Shown here one piece after another: positions 9,399 to 16,185 of a stretch of DNA of 33,934 bases (its first letter is position 1; every line of letters starts with the position of its first letter). Source of the stretch: Emcibacter sp. (GTDB taxonomy: Bacteria > Pseudomonadota > Alphaproteobacteria > Sphingomonadales > Emcibacteraceae). A program made the translations under genes and the position numbers. The stretch is taken from the NCBI GenBank assembly GCA_027019205.1, contig JALUWZ010000173.1, positions 1-33,934 of the forward strand, written 5' to 3'. Below the pieces are notes generated by a model. It searched no databases, was not told the origin of the DNA, and saw only the letters and a program-made list of their open reading frames with translations.

Positions 9399-9425
9399 CA
9401 TAATTAGAAAATGATAGGTATTTAC

Positions 9426-10127
9426 ATGCGTGTGCTGCTCATAGAAGATGATCCCTCCACATCCAAAAGTATTGAATTAATGTTATCAGCCGAAGGCTTT
9501 AACATCTACTGTACCGACCTCGGTGAAGAAGGCATCGACCTCGGCAAATTATATGATTATGATATTATCCTGCTGGATCTCAATCTGCCGGATATGCATG
9601 GCTATGATGTATTGAAGAAGCTGCGCCTGTCGAAGGTAACCACGCCTATTCTTATTCTGTCCGGCATGGGTGAACTGGAAAACAAGGTCAAGGGGCTGGG
9701 CTACGGCGCCGACGATTATCTGACCAAACCATTTTACAAGGAAGAACTGGTGGCACGGATACAGGCCATCATCCGGCGCTCCAAGGGCCATGCGGAATCA
9801 ATTATCCGCACTGGCAAGCTCTCCGTCAACCTTGATACAAAGACCGTCGATGTCAATAATCAACGGGTCCATCTGACCGGCAAGGAATATGCCATGCTCG
9901 AACTGCTGTCCCTGCGTAAAAGCACGACGCTGACCAAGGAAATGTTCCTTAATCACCTTTACGGCGGCATGGATGAGCCGGAACTGAAAATCATTGATGT
10001 TTTTATCTGCAAATTACGCAAAAAGCTGATGGCGATCTGCGGCGAAAATTATATTGAAACCGTCTGGGGACGGGGCTATGTGCTGCGTGATCCGGAAAAC
10101 ACAGATGACGTTGCCGTCGCCAGTTAA
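9426..10127 (+). CDS. ctrA: Cell-cycle response regulator CtrA (OmpR-type)
   Basis: [64 protein letters not shown]-terminal winged helix; ORF track start 9411, start moved to the conserved MRVLLIEDD. Confidence 0.95.
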
Positions 10128-10230: not shown

Positions 10231-11070
10231 TTATCCCACCTTACGCAGTTGACCTGCATGATCAGCGGTCATATACATGCCGCGTTTACCGGATACGGGT
10301 TTGAATTTTTCGGTTAATCCAAGAACGGTTTCTGCGGCGCCGAGGAATAATGTTCCATCTTCGGCCATCTGTCCCCGCAGACGTTCCAGCACGTCGCTCT
10401 TGGTATCCTGATGGAAATAAATCAACACATTCCGGCAAAATACCACATCAAAAGTGCCAAGGGAGCGAAAGCTGTCCAGCAGATTAAACGGTCTGTAGGT
10501 CACCATTTTACGGATTTTTTCGGAAATCTGCCACATCTCGCCGGCCTGGGTAAAATATTTCATCAACAGTTTGATCGGCAGGCCCCTTTGAACTTCAAAC
10601 TGTGAATATACACCGGCCCGGGCCTTGTCCAGAACATCCTTTGACAGATCGGTGCCGATAATTTCAATATTCCAGCCCGCCAGCTGGGTCTCCATCTCAC
10701 TCAATATCATGGCCAGGGAATAAGGCTCCTGCCCGGTTGAGGCCGCCGCACACCAGATACGGATTCTTCTGGCATTTGCCCGTGCCTTCAACAGACCCGG
10801 CAGGACATCCGCCTTGAAAAGATCAAACGGGGTGCTGTCGCGGAAAAAGAAGGATTCATTGGTGGTCATCGCATCGGTGATCTCGCGCAGTAAATCCTCC
10901 TTGCGCCGCAGCCTGACCTCGTTAATCAGATCATCCAGTGTTTCCATGCCTTTCTTGCGGGCAATCGGGGTCAGGCGGCTCTCCAGAAGATAAACCTTGT
11001 TTTCCGACAAGACCAGGCCCGACCTTTCCTTCAGGATCTTGCTCAGCAGCTCAAAATCTTCTTTTCTCAT
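10231..11070 (-). CDS. cheR: Chemotaxis protein methyltransferase CheR
   Basis: 279 aa; RIRIWCAAASTGQEPYSLAMIL, FDVVFCRNVLIYF motifs. Confidence 0.95.
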   Translation of the reverse strand: MRKEDFELLSKILKERSGLVLSENKVYLLESRLTPIARKKGMETLDDLINEVRLRRKEDLLREITDAMTTNESFFFRDSTPFDLFKADVLPGLLKARANARRIRIWCAAASTGQEPYSLAMILSEMETQLAGWNIEIIGTDLSKDVLDKARAGVYSQFEVQRGLPIKLLMKYFTQAGEMWQISEKIRKMVTYRPFNLLDSFRSLGTFDVVFCRNVLIYFHQDTKSDVLERLRGQMAEDGTLFLGAAETVLGLTEKFKPVSGKRGMYMTADHAGQLRKVG

Positions 11071-12218
11071 GATGCCAGTCCCATCAGTTTTTCTTTGATT
11101 TTCCCGCCAATTTCATCAAGCGGATATATTCCACTGCACAGACCCGCTGTGCTGACTGCCCCCGGCATGCCCCAGACGACACTGGATTTTTCATCCTGGG
11201 CGATCAGGTTACCCCCGGCGGCCACCAGCTTGCGGCTGGCCTCAAGACCATCATGGCCCATGCCGGTCAATATGACGGCGAATACTTTTGCGCCATATAA
11301 TTCTGTCACACTCCTGAACATCGGCTCAACGGACGGGCGGCAGAAATTTTCCTGTGGTCCCTGATTGAGCGAGATAACATCCTGTCCGGACTTCTTCACC
11401 ACCGTCATATGATAGTCGCCGGGGGCCAGATAGACCTTGCCTTTTTCCAGTATATCGCCGTCTTCGGCTTCCTTGCAGTCAAATCTGGTGGCGCTGGTCA
11501 GGTGCTTTGCCAGAATGGCGGTAAAAGTTGGCGGCATATGCTGGGTGATGATCACCGGAACATCTGCCGACCCCAGATCTCTGAGAACTGCCAGCAGGGC
11601 CTGTGGTCCGCCGGTAGAACTGCCAATGGCCAATATTGAGACTTTGCCCGGTGAAAAGCGACGTTTTTCCGGCGTTTTACCAACATTCCCGACCGGCATG
11701 AGGTCCTTTTTGACCAGCGTTGTCTTGCCCCGGAAAATTTTGCCGCCATTGCGCAGCCTGCTGGCGGCGGCAATATTTATAACCTTGCTGATGATTTCTT
11801 CCTGAAAGCTCATTGATGAGGCAATATCACGGTTGCTTTCCGGCTTGGAAACATAGTCAGAAGCGCCAAGGGACAGGGCTTTCATGCTGATTTCCGCATT
11901 GCGTTTGGTCAGGGTTGAGGCCATCAAAACTTTAACTTTCGGGTTTATCTTGAAGAATTCCGGCAGGGCCGTCAATCCGTCCATGACCGGCATTTCAATA
12001 TCCAGAATGATAATTTCAGGATCATATCTGGCCATATTGTCCAGAGCAATCTTGCCATTGCCCGCTGTGCCGACAATCTGAATGGCGGGGTCCTCCGAAA
12101 GCCATCGGGACATCATACCCCTGATCACTGCTGAATCGTCAACGATCATAACCCGATATTGACCACTTCTTATATTCCGAGCCGAATTGCCCCTGTCTTT
12201 TATGGAAATACTGCTCAC
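11067..12218 (-). CDS. cheB: Protein-glutamate methylesterase CheB
   Basis: REC domain plus methylesterase motifs LAIGSSTGGPQALLAVL, ITQHMPPTFTAILAKHL, ILTGMGHDGLEA. Confidence 0.96.
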   Translation of the reverse strand: MSSISIKDRGNSARNIRSGQYRVMIVDDSAVIRGMMSRWLSEDPAIQIVGTAGNGKIALDNMARYDPEIIILDIEMPVMDGLTALPEFFKINPKVKVLMASTLTKRNAEISMKALSLGASDYVSKPESNRDIASSMSFQEEIISKVINIAAASRLRNGGKIFRGKTTLVKKDLMPVGNVGKTPEKRRFSPGKVSILAIGSSTGGPQALLAVLRDLGSADVPVIITQHMPPTFTAILAKHLTSATRFDCKEAEDGDILEKGKVYLAPGDYHMTVVKKSGQDVISLNQGPQENFCRPSVEPMFRSVTELYGAKVFAVILTGMGHDGLEASRKLVAAGGNLIAQDEKSSVVWGMPGAVSTAGLCSGIYPLDEIGGKIKEKLMGLAS

Positions 12219-12584
12219 TTAAATTAATCCTACCTGAGAAAATTTTGCTTCAATGATTTCACGGTCAAATGGTTTCATGATATATTCGTCGGCCCCGGCG
12301 GAAATCGCCGCGCTGATATGGCTCATATCATTTTCAGTCGTACAGAACACCACCACCGGCTTGTCACCCCCATCAGAAGCCCTCAGGTTTTTCAGGAAAT
12401 CAAGACCGTTCATCACCGGCATATTCCAGTCCAGAAGAACAACATCCGGCAGAGTCTCATGGCATGAATCCAGAGCATCCTGACCATCGACGGCCTCACG
12501 AATGTCAAAGTCAAGTTCCTCCAGAATACGTCGCGCCACTTTTCTGATAACTTTTGAGTCATCAACCACAAGACAGGATTTCAT
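12219..12584 (-). CDS. cheY: Single-domain response regulator CheY
   Basis: 121 aa REC: VVDDSKVIRKVARRIL, VLLDWNMPVMNGLDFL, KPFD. Confidence 0.9.
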   Translation of the reverse strand: MKSCLVVDDSKVIRKVARRILEELDFDIREAVDGQDALDSCHETLPDVVLLDWNMPVMNGLDFLKNLRASDGGDKPVVVFCTTENDMSHISAAISAGADEYIMKPFDREIIEAKFSQVGLI

Positions 12585-12640: not shown

Positions 12641-13111
12641 TCAGGCCGCCACAGCCTGGCTTCTCTCAAAATTCAACAATTTTTCCACATCAAGAATAAC
12701 CAGCAATTCTCCCTCCAGACGAAAGATACCGCCGGATACCTCCTGCCAGCAGACATCCAGCGTCACAGGATTGCGTTCAAATGACTCTTCCGGAAATGAC
12801 ATGACATCCCCGACAGAATCAATCAGAAGGCTGTAGGGCTCCTCCTCATATTCAACGACAATGCTCATATTTTCACTATTCTCTTTCTGGTCCTCAAGTC
12901 CCAGACGTTTGCGTAAATCTATCGCGGTTACGATACGACCGCGCAGATTAAGCACCCCGGCAACAGCAGGCGGGGCCAGCGGGACGGCGGTGATTGCCTG
13001 TTCAGACAAAACATCATGCACCGACAGAACCGGAATGCCGCATAACTGTCCGGATAGCCGAAATGTCACAAAATCTCTGTTTTCATTTTCCATTGTCTTT
13101 CCCTTTTCCAA
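12641..13111 (-). CDS. cheW: Chemotaxis coupling protein CheW
   Basis: FRLSGQLCGIPVLSVHDVL...GVLNLRGRIVTAIDLRKRLGL. Confidence 0.92.
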   Translation of the reverse strand: MEKGKTMENENRDFVTFRLSGQLCGIPVLSVHDVLSEQAITAVPLAPPAVAGVLNLRGRIVTAIDLRKRLGLEDQKENSENMSIVVEYEEEPYSLLIDSVGDVMSFPEESFERNPVTLDVCWQEVSGGIFRLEGELLVILDVEKLLNFERSQAVAA

Positions 13112-13116
13112 TATAT

Positions 13117-16100
13117 CTATGCTGCATTCTGTTTTCTGTTGATCTGGTCCATGATGGTGGTCATCAGGGTATCGCGTTCAAGTTTGACCACATAATCATC
13201 AAATCCGACCTCCCGGCCCCGGGCAAAATCTTTCGGTGTATGATGGGATGACAGGGCAATCATCGGCGTTGTCTGCCAGATTCCGCCAGACCGGACCTCT
13301 TCAGCAAAACTGAATCCGTCCATATCGGGCATTTCTATATCGCTGACGATAATATCAAAATCATTGCCTTTCTCCCGAAGAGCGAGGGCGGCTGCCGCGC
13401 TGTCCACCGCCGTAATTTTATACCCCGCCGCCGACAGGAGCGGCCTTATCATATTGAGGAAGAATTTACTGTCATCAATCAACAGGATCTCAGGCATATT
13501 CTGCGTGCTGGTATGGCCGGAAGTGCTGGATGACCCCAGCGTGCCAAAGGCCTTTTCAATATAATAGGCCACATCAATAATTTCCGTGGCATTGCCGTCA
13601 ATGACTGCGGTGCCCACCTGACCGTCAATTTCCGAGGAAAGCTCGATATCAATTTTATCCTCAAGAATATCGACAATCTCATCAACGGCGATACCCATTG
13701 TCCGGTCTCCGTCGGCAAAGACTAGAATTGGCTGTCGGCCTTCTTCCTTGAATTTCCGGCTGCTGTCAAGATTGACCAGCGGCATCAGGCGGCCCCGATA
13801 CTGATAGACCGGTTTGCCATCTGATGACTCGATATCCTTAACGTCAATTTCCTCAAGCCGGGCAACCAGAGACAGGGGAACAGCCCGATGACGGTTTTGC
13901 CCGGCGCTGAACAGCAGGATTGCCTCACGTTCATTTATAATACCCGATGGCATGATCTCTCCTTCCTCTCCCCCGAAACCGGAGGAATCGGATACCTTGT
14001 CGCTGATCTGGTTCACAATGCCGTTCGGATCAAGGATCATGATCACCTTGCCATCACCAAGAATGGTATTTCCGGCAAAGGTCTGTAAATCCCTCAGGAT
14101 AGGGGCCACCGGTTTGACGACGATTTCCTCGGTGTCAAATACCTGATCGACAACAATACCGAAAGTGAATGTCCCGACCTGGGTGATGACGATATAATCT
14201 TCCTGTTTTGTAATATCATTGCCGTCTTCGTCTTTTTCCGGCGCGCCAAGTCCGAGAATTTCTTCCAGCCGGACCAGCGGCAACAGCCGGTCGCGCAGAC
14301 GCAGGACCGGCGTATTATTGATATGTTCAATACTATGTTCGGAATCATTGGATGCCCGGACAAGTTCAAGGACACTGATCTGCGGAATGGCAAATCTGTC
14401 TTCCCGGCATTTGACAATCAGGGCCGATACGATGGCCAGCGTCAGGGGAATCTTGATGCTGAAACTTGTGCCTTTGCCTTCGATTGATTTAAGATCAACC
14501 GTACCGCCGATCTTTTCAATATTGCTCCGCACAACATCCATCCCGACACCGCGACCCGATACAGCCGTTACTTTTTCGGCAGTGGAGAAACCGGCATGGA
14601 AGATAAATCTCTGAATCTGGTTATCAGACATCTCATCCAGTTCTTCCTGGGTGGCAAGCTCATTCTTCAGGGCCTTGGCCTTCAGTTTCTCAACCGGCAG
14701 TCCCGCCCCGTCATCGGTGATTTCAATAATGATATGACCGCCCTCGTGAAAAGCATTCAGGCGGATGGTTCCGGTTTCCTTCTTGCCTGCCGCCAGACGG
14801 TCTGCCGGCATTTCAATGCCGTGATCGGCAGAATTGCGCACCATATGGGTCAACGGGTCCTTGATCATTTCCAGAACCTGCCGGTCAAGTTCAGTATCCG
14901 CCCCCAGCATCTGAAGATCAATTTTCTTGTTCAGTTCCAGCTGCAGATCACGAATAATCCTCGGCAGTTTGGCCCAGGCGTTGCCGACCGGCTGCATCCG
15001 GGTTTTCATGACCCCTTCCTGTAATTCAGTTGTACATTGACTAAGACGCTGCAAGGGAATGGAAAATTCGCTGTCATTGCTGTTGCGTAACAATTGCATA
15101 AGCTGGTTTCTGGTCAGCACAAGTTCACTGACCATCGTCATCAGGTCTTCCAGAACCTGAACATTCACCCGAATGCTCTGGTTGGCGATGCTTTTCTCCC
15201 CCGACTTGGCCCCGGCAGCAGATTTTGTATCAGATTCCGAAGGCTTGTTTTTAGCTTTGCTGCGGGCCTGCTCAAGAATATTAACTGCAATATCATCATA
15301 TTCCACCAGTACGGCATCCACATCCAATGGCGCCAGATCAACTTCCTCCAGTACCGATTGCAGCAATTTACGGACAGTCTCATTCTGTTTTTCTGTCATG
15401 CCGTGGGAAATGAAAGGTTCAAAGGCCGCAGAGATACTCGGGCCACTCTCGGCCTTTCCGGCAAGACAGGCGCTAAAGAAGTTGCCCATTTTATCCTTGC
15501 TGTCTCTTTTATTCACCCCCTCCATAAGGCCTTTGACGGAAATATCGGCAAATAACCGGTTATGGAACAGATGGACAATCACCTTGACCGCCTCGACGCC
15601 GCCAATACGCGTTAACAGGTCTTCCTGTTCGGATTCTGACTGTATTTCCTCTTCTGTATCATCCTCGTCATCCGGGCCGGGCGCGGCGGCAAAGGCGGCT
15701 TCGAGTTCTTCGAGGGAAACCTGTCCGGGTAATATCGTTGCGGGCTGTGTGATCTCCGGCATTTCTATTGCCGCTTCCTCTGCCGCAGGCGCTGCCACTT
15801 CAAGCTGCCCCCCCGAGGCCACGACATTCAACTGGCTGATAATATCGCTGTCATCGCCTTCCGGCTCCTGCTGTGTTGCCTCAAGGGCGGCCAGGATTTC
15901 CTTGATCCGGTCCAGAGCCGCCAGAATAAGTGTGACAGAATCAGACGTGACGGTAAGTTCCCCGTCCCGGTATTTTCCCAGCACATTTTCCCCGGCATGG
16001 GCCACGGTCTCAAGCCGTGGCAGACCAAGAAAACCACAGGTTCCCTTGATGGTATGAACCAGACGGAAGATATTGTCCAGAATGGGTTTGTTGGTCGGGT

Positions 16101-16185
16101 CCTGCTCCAGCGTGACCAGTTCAACATCGACTTCATCAATACTCTCCGCAGTTTCGGTCAGAAACTCATTCAGCAAATCATCCAT
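13117..16185 (-). CDS. cheA: Hybrid chemotaxis histidine kinase CheA (Hpt - globin-like segment - dimerisation - HATPase - CheW - CheW-like - REC)
   Basis: Hpt LVHTIKGTCGFLGL; HATPase DHGIEMPADR and GRGVGMDVVRSNIEKIGG; C-terminal REC ILLIDDSKFFLNMIRPLL; ORF track starts at 16221 (GTG), ATG at 16185 (MDDLLNEFL) is more likely. Confidence 0.95.
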   Translation of the reverse strand: MDDLLNEFLTETAESIDEVDVELVTLEQDPTNKPILDNIFRLVHTIKGTCGFLGLPRLETVAHAGENVLGKYRDGELTVTSDSVTLILAALDRIKEILAALEATQQEPEGDDSDIISQLNVVASGGQLEVAAPAAEEAAIEMPEITQPATILPGQVSLEELEAAFAAAPGPDDEDDTEEEIQSESEQEDLLTRIGGVEAVKVIVHLFHNRLFADISVKGLMEGVNKRDSKDKMGNFFSACLAGKAESGPSISAAFEPFISHGMTEKQNETVRKLLQSVLEEVDLAPLDVDAVLVEYDDIAVNILEQARSKAKNKPSESDTKSAAGAKSGEKSIANQSIRVNVQVLEDLMTMVSELVLTRNQLMQLLRNSNDSEFSIPLQRLSQCTTELQEGVMKTRMQPVGNAWAKLPRIIRDLQLELNKKIDLQMLGADTELDRQVLEMIKDPLTHMVRNSADHGIEMPADRLAAGKKETGTIRLNAFHEGGHIIIEITDDGAGLPVEKLKAKALKNELATQEELDEMSDNQIQRFIFHAGFSTAEKVTAVSGRGVGMDVVRSNIEKIGGTVDLKSIEGKGTSFSIKIPLTLAIVSALIVKCREDRFAIPQISVLELVRASNDSEHSIEHINNTPVLRLRDRLLPLVRLEEILGLGAPEKDEDGNDITKQEDYIVITQVGTFTFGIVVDQVFDTEEIVVKPVAPILRDLQTFAGNTILGDGKVIMILDPNGIVNQISDKVSDSSGFGGEEGEIMPSGIINEREAILLFSAGQNRHRAVPLSLVARLEEIDVKDIESSDGKPVYQYRGRLMPLVNLDSSRKFKEEGRQPILVFADGDRTMGIAVDEIVDILEDKIDIELSSEIDGQVGTAVIDGNATEIIDVAYYIEKAFGTLGSSSTSGHTSTQNMPEILLIDDSKFFLNMIRPLLSAAGYKITAVDSAAAALALREKGNDFDIIVSDIEMPDMDGFSFAEEVRSGGIWQTTPMIALSSHHTPKDFARGREVGFDDYVVKLERDTLMTTIMDQINRKQNAA

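Follow-up and report, generated by a model that had tools for sequence, protein, structure and literature searches.

A group I truncated-globin domain lacking the usual haem ligands in the chemotaxis kinase CheA of Emcibacter sp.

The chemotaxis kinase CheA encoded in the window (the whole stretch of 33,934 nucleotides of Emcibacter sp. DNA analysed here) almost certainly contains a group I truncated-globin domain, which occupies residues 188-306 and from which the usual haem ligands are missing. Our preferred reading, to which we give a probability of about 0.75, is that the domain stems from an input domain that bound haem, has itself become haem-free, and is retained under moderate purifying selection as a tethered module for regulation or docking.

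The cheA gene (13117-16185, minus strand; translation and Pfam) encodes 1022 amino acids, numbered here from the ATG at position 16185. Pfam analysis revealed an Hpt domain with its His, H-kinase_dim, HATPase_c and CheW, as belong to a CheA, in the order Hpt - linker - truncated globin - linker - H-kinase_dim - HATPase_c - CheW - CheW - receiver. On the minus strand, P1/Hpt (residues 3-96, 15898-16179) carries the phospho-acceptor His44 in the motif VHTIKG, which is invariant in CheA alignments, and is followed by the low-complexity linker 1 (residues 121-187, 15625-15825; pLDDT below 50 over most of it). The globin (15268-15624; Pfam, PDB searches, alignment and predicted structure) thus lies between Hpt and P3/H-kinase_dim (residues 335-395, 15001-15183), after which come P4/HATPase_c (residues 443-582, 14440-14859), P5/CheW (residues 588-726, 14008-14424) with another CheW stretch behind it, and the C-terminal receiver (residues 900-1009, 13159-13488), all assigned by Pfam. 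Apart from the globin, this is the layout of hybrid CheA proteins with a C-terminal receiver, in which Hpt, P3, P4 and P5 are joined to a receiver and P2 is absent (PMC10782961). The cluster reads chpT-cheA-cheW-cheY-cheB-cheR, with a chpT-like histidine phosphotransferase (PF10090; 16349-16993), cheW (12641-13111), cheY with a single receiver domain (12219-12584), cheB (11067-12218) and cheR (10231-11070), all on the minus strand. An OmpR-family response regulator, possibly CtrA as judged from Pfam only, is encoded near the che cluster and chpT at 9411-10127 on the plus strand.

The initial annotation had proposed a truncated-globin-like segment of group I/II inside CheA; the sequence it quoted corresponds to residues 189-306. 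Against the PF01152 (Bac_globin) cut-off of 21 bits, full-length CheA scored 18.8 bits, below it, and the isolated segment 23.8-24.5 bits (E 3e-5 to 5e-5), above it; the genome scan gave 23.1 bits for the same segment. When the single segment was searched against the PDB, truncated haemoglobins were the top matches (E = 9e-6), and a profile of 27 orthologous segments, all from the window's order, matched group I truncated haemoglobins at 3e-15. Individually, 18 of the 27 profile members match PF01152 (E up to 0.1). The AlphaFold model of the domain, built from 19 sequences, reached a pLDDT of 95.7 and gave 19 PDB matches at E<=0.001, every one a truncated haemoglobin of the 2/2 globin fold, the closest being HbN of M. 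tuberculosis (TM 0.83, rmsd 2.3). The modest single-sequence Pfam score, sub-threshold on the full protein, could have reflected a chance alignment of helical sequence. We give this practically no credence, because the family profile, the PDB searches, the 27-segment profile and the predicted fold all point to a globin, and ligand-complete CheA globins occupy the same site in other lineages; the profile match and the structural match to HbN rule chance resemblance out. The globin fold was therefore upheld, by a family match above cut-off as well as by structure prediction, and the group could be narrowed: group I structures were clearly better in profile and structure comparison, and group II was rejected. 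Nor is it a 3/3 sensor globin of the globin-coupled sensor type, since it lies within the protein and matches group I 2/2 globins best; PF11563 is not listed among the Pfam matches of the window CheA.

Pocket positions were assigned by placing the window sequence on HbN and the Chlamydomonas truncated haemoglobin. By this alignment, F8, the proximal His in haem-binding truncated globins, is Phe255 (15421-15423, minus strand), confirming the earlier remark that the proximal His is missing. B10, a Tyr in haem-type CheA globins, is His208 (15562-15564, minus strand), CD1 is Met221 in place of Phe, E11 is Met233 in place of Gln, and E7 is Ser; the Phe residues at B9, E14 and E15 are the same as in haem globins, and B7 is His205 (15571-15573, minus strand). 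The domain is thus like group I truncated haemoglobins (M. tuberculosis HbN, Chlamydomonas THB1; PF01152) in fold, profile match, GG motif and the B9 and E14 Phe, and unlike them in having none of F8 His, B10 Tyr, CD1 Phe and E11 Gln and, where they are free-standing, in being embedded in a kinase. With both the proximal His and the distal Tyr lost, its sequence predicts that haem is no longer held in the usual manner.

Could haem or metal still be bound through other residues, for example the His205/His208 pair? The motif HLxHNR that holds this pair (15562-15573, minus strand) is kept in nearly all of the window's family, and nearly all of the order's orthologues have His at B7, a position held by Asp or Glu in most CheA globins of other lineages. 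However, the other families of the order combine the B7 His with Ala, Ser, Cys or Glu at B10, and CD1 Phe and E11 Gln have been replaced too. A restoring His elsewhere in helix F was ruled out, as none is conserved among the order's CheA globins. Alternative haem or metal binding is therefore quite improbable.

In E. coli and T. maritima CheA, the position between P1 and P3 is that of the P2/CheY-binding domain, and the globin had been described as standing in place of P2. The positional part of this description is right, as the site corresponds to that of E. coli P2; the replacement is not. The fold is unrelated to P2, and neither P2 nor a CheY-binding domain had any Pfam match at E<=1 in the window CheA. 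The globin-less orthologues are likewise without recognisable P2 and have only a disordered, low-complexity Ala/Pro/Glu linker at the globin site, mostly 60-110 amino acids long, in a family where linker length varies widely. Comparison thus shows that the globin entered the linker between P1 and P3 in an alphaproteobacterial hybrid CheA devoid of P2, and did not take the place of a P2 domain. In the predicted model of residues 1-402, P1, the globin and P3 each fold on their own, and the connecting stretches 129-186 and 315-337 are largely below pLDDT 50; its pTM of 0.36 is too low for judging whether the globin touches P1 or P3. Linker 1 contains the motif PGQVSLEELEAAFAAAPGP (PGEVSLEELEAAFxAAPGP; residues 153-171, 15673-15729, minus strand), which is also present in globin-less CheAs and is a possible docking motif. 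It is duplicated in loci L113, L115, L118 and L132.

Among 46 genomes of the window's order in which a CheA orthologue was examined, 38 have a recognisable globin and eight have none, although one of these eight (L040) keeps a globin-sized remnant. The orthologue survey for the segment and its F8 residue, suggested at the outset, found F8 His in none of the 38, with the qualification that other families of the order have a short F-helix deletion, so that the letter aligned at F8 shifts with the alignment. Relatives with the CheA globin include putative Emcibacter MAGs, Kordiimonadaceae and the cultured Eilatimonas milleporae DSM 25217. Contigs were searched with an Hpt plus globin query and the best 80 loci were retained. 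A sample of the class gave a globin-like domain in CheA at this site in 19 of 385 genomes, two of them weak (L094, L133). No CheA globin was found outside Alphaproteobacteria among the matches listed for a 399-genome sample of the phylum; four long frames that seemingly embedded the domain outside the class were rejected as short globins in chance-extended frames.

Nei-Gojobori counts for pairs of the order with usable dS, some of them near saturation, gave dN/dS values of 0.05-0.16 for the globin, 0.00-0.07 for the P3-P5 kinase core and 0.04-0.28 for linker 1; the f94 pair L086/L088 was exceptional, with 0.5 for the globin. The globin is thus under purifying selection that is weaker than that on the kinase core and not clearly stronger than that on the linker, which lends a role for the globin moderate support.

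Ligand-complete globins were found in other alphaproteobacterial lineages, at the same CheA site as in the window. Both B10 Tyr and F8 His are present in the CheA globins of loci L084, L087, L093, L096, L097/L098, L100 and L173. The full HbN-type pocket (B10 Tyr, CD1 Phe, E7 Leu, E11 Gln, E14 Phe and F8 His) occurs in L084, L096, L097, L098 and L173 and in the second globins of L099 and L100; judged by these residues, haem binding is predicted for L084, L096, L097 and L173. The second, ligand-complete globins lie inside the CheW/P5 domain (L100:1893-5453, plus strand; L099:2-2587, minus strand), the L099 CheA being the same gene as in L177. L084, L087 and L100 have the chpT-cheA-cheW-cheY-cheB neighbourhood of the window in common with it, and chpT lies upstream of cheA in L173 and L099; the neighbourhoods of L096, L097 and L093 are unlike that of the window. 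Partly stripped forms also occur: L174 and L180 retain F8 His and have Phe at B10, and in L178 and L089-L092, of the same clade, the F8 segment is deleted.

Truncated globins were also seen in other proteins. L102 (1965-4829, plus strand) and L060 (1441-2490, plus strand) encode PAS proteins with an N-terminal truncated globin; the L102 frame runs on into an MCP signalling domain, which makes its product a chemoreceptor with a truncated globin, in contrast to receptors with 3/3 globins. L095 (1979-3184, plus strand) encodes a CheW with a C-terminal truncated globin, of which L103 (2863-4044, minus strand) looks like a degenerate version. A stand-alone globin in the genome of L031 (G000:C104:6377-6724) has F8 His and B10 Leu.

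On the globin tree, forms with and without the ligands stand together in a clade of 13 CheA globins (support 80/84, and 95/94 without L084), and the globins of the window's order form a long branch of their own. A single origin of all CheA globins was not rejected (p-AU 0.365), and common descent of the window globin with the haem-type CheA globins is compatible with this tree. Ligand-less forms stand in at least three separate places (the window's order; L104 with L085/L086; L178 with L089/L091); on the assumption that the ancestral globin bound haem, F8 His therefore appears to have been lost on three or more occasions. The tree of the CheA core, made by a quick method and having long branches, counts 14 gains or losses of the globin, with the direction indistinguishable. 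We infer that the window globin most likely descends from a haem-binding globin.

What such a domain might do can be sketched as follows. In the other lineages, a ligand-complete CheA globin would most likely be a built-in O2 or NO input to the kinase. Loss of the proximal His and distal Tyr in the window's order would have left a folded module, independent of haem and held between phosphoacceptor domain and kinase core by flexible linkers, and this module might alter P1 access or phosphotransfer through protein contacts or through a small hydrophobic ligand in the empty pocket. Such a haem-independent mode of action, on the model of the non-haem RsbR globins of Bacillus, is put forward by analogy and tentatively, at somewhat under even odds. 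The wider scheme, in which CheA gained a truncated-globin input within Alphaproteobacteria that directly senses O2/NO and gates the kinase in several lineages, and that in the window's order became a sensor or docking domain without haem after parallel loss of ligands, is possible to a similar degree, a little short of an even chance.

Two other roles were weighed against the tethered regulatory module. In protein sequence the globin evolves several-fold faster than the core, at a pace not clearly below that of the adjacent linker, and it is absent from 8 of 46 orthologues, in several clades. It can therefore be dispensed with and might be a spacer: a former haem sensor without a job, folded into the linker and heading for deletion. 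The great variability of linker length would suit such a passive relic, as would the dN/dS of the globin, which exceeds the kinase-core value several-fold and roughly equals the linker value. Yet this dN/dS stays near 0.1, the predicted fold is of high confidence, 38 of 46 orthologues retain the domain, and His persists at B7 in nearly all of the order's orthologues and at B10 in nearly all of the window's family; a relic is thus rather unlikely. Retention of the fold with loss of the ligands would equally fit a surface role, in which the globin acts as an analogue of P2, docking CheY, CheB, CheW or ChpT to raise their local concentration near P1, with no small-molecule input. The globin sits at the P2 position in a protein lacking P2, and ChpT, CheY, CheB and CheW are all encoded alongside cheA. 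The linker motif PGEVSLEELEAAF, however, being common to globin-less CheAs, is an equally good docking candidate, and we consider docking by the globin surface unlikely, slightly more so than the relic.

Among the closest known parallels to a haem-free descendant kept as a module is the stressosome protein RsbR, whose Bacillus globins are non-haem, one having been crystallised with a fatty acid, and whose Vibrio globins bind haem and show O2-controlled phosphorylation (PMC4976288). Here too one and the same domain position is taken by a signalling globin that is haem-free in one lineage and binds haem in the sister lineage (PMC4976288); by analogy, the RsbR globins offer direct precedent for both the haem and the non-haem state. 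Unlike the CheA globin, they belong to the sensor-globin (3/3) family and are N-terminal on a STAS protein. Globin-coupled sensors such as the aerotaxis receptor HemAT likewise feed a chemotaxis pathway, with a 3/3 sensor globin at the receptor N-terminus in contrast to the 2/2 truncated globin in the middle of the kinase. Multidomain truncated haemoglobins also place a globin within a larger protein; the relevant passages of one account mention fusions to kinase, nitrate reductase and antibiotic monooxygenase and do not name CheA (PMC7082302). The main text of a survey of 13,673 CheA proteins names P2, CheY-like and CheC/CheX domains as the auxiliary ones, never uses the word 'globin', and describes CheA as a kinase without a sensor domain that relies on chemoreceptors (PMC10782961); a 2026 review of aerotaxis, where it deals with globins, places them in receptors (PMC13401364). 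In the open-access literature, to which our search extended, we found no report of a globin in CheA.

A globin within CheA that has all its ligands in some lineages and has been stripped of them in others makes a direct input to the kinase possible: the central kinase may take gas or other input directly, bypassing the receptors. As related bacteria have an apparently intact globin at this place in CheA, there may be chemotaxis kinases that detect oxygen or nitric oxide on their own. The series from ligand-complete through partly stripped and fully stripped to domain-less orthologues makes the idea of direct input testable, and may show how a haem sensor was turned into something else with its fold kept.
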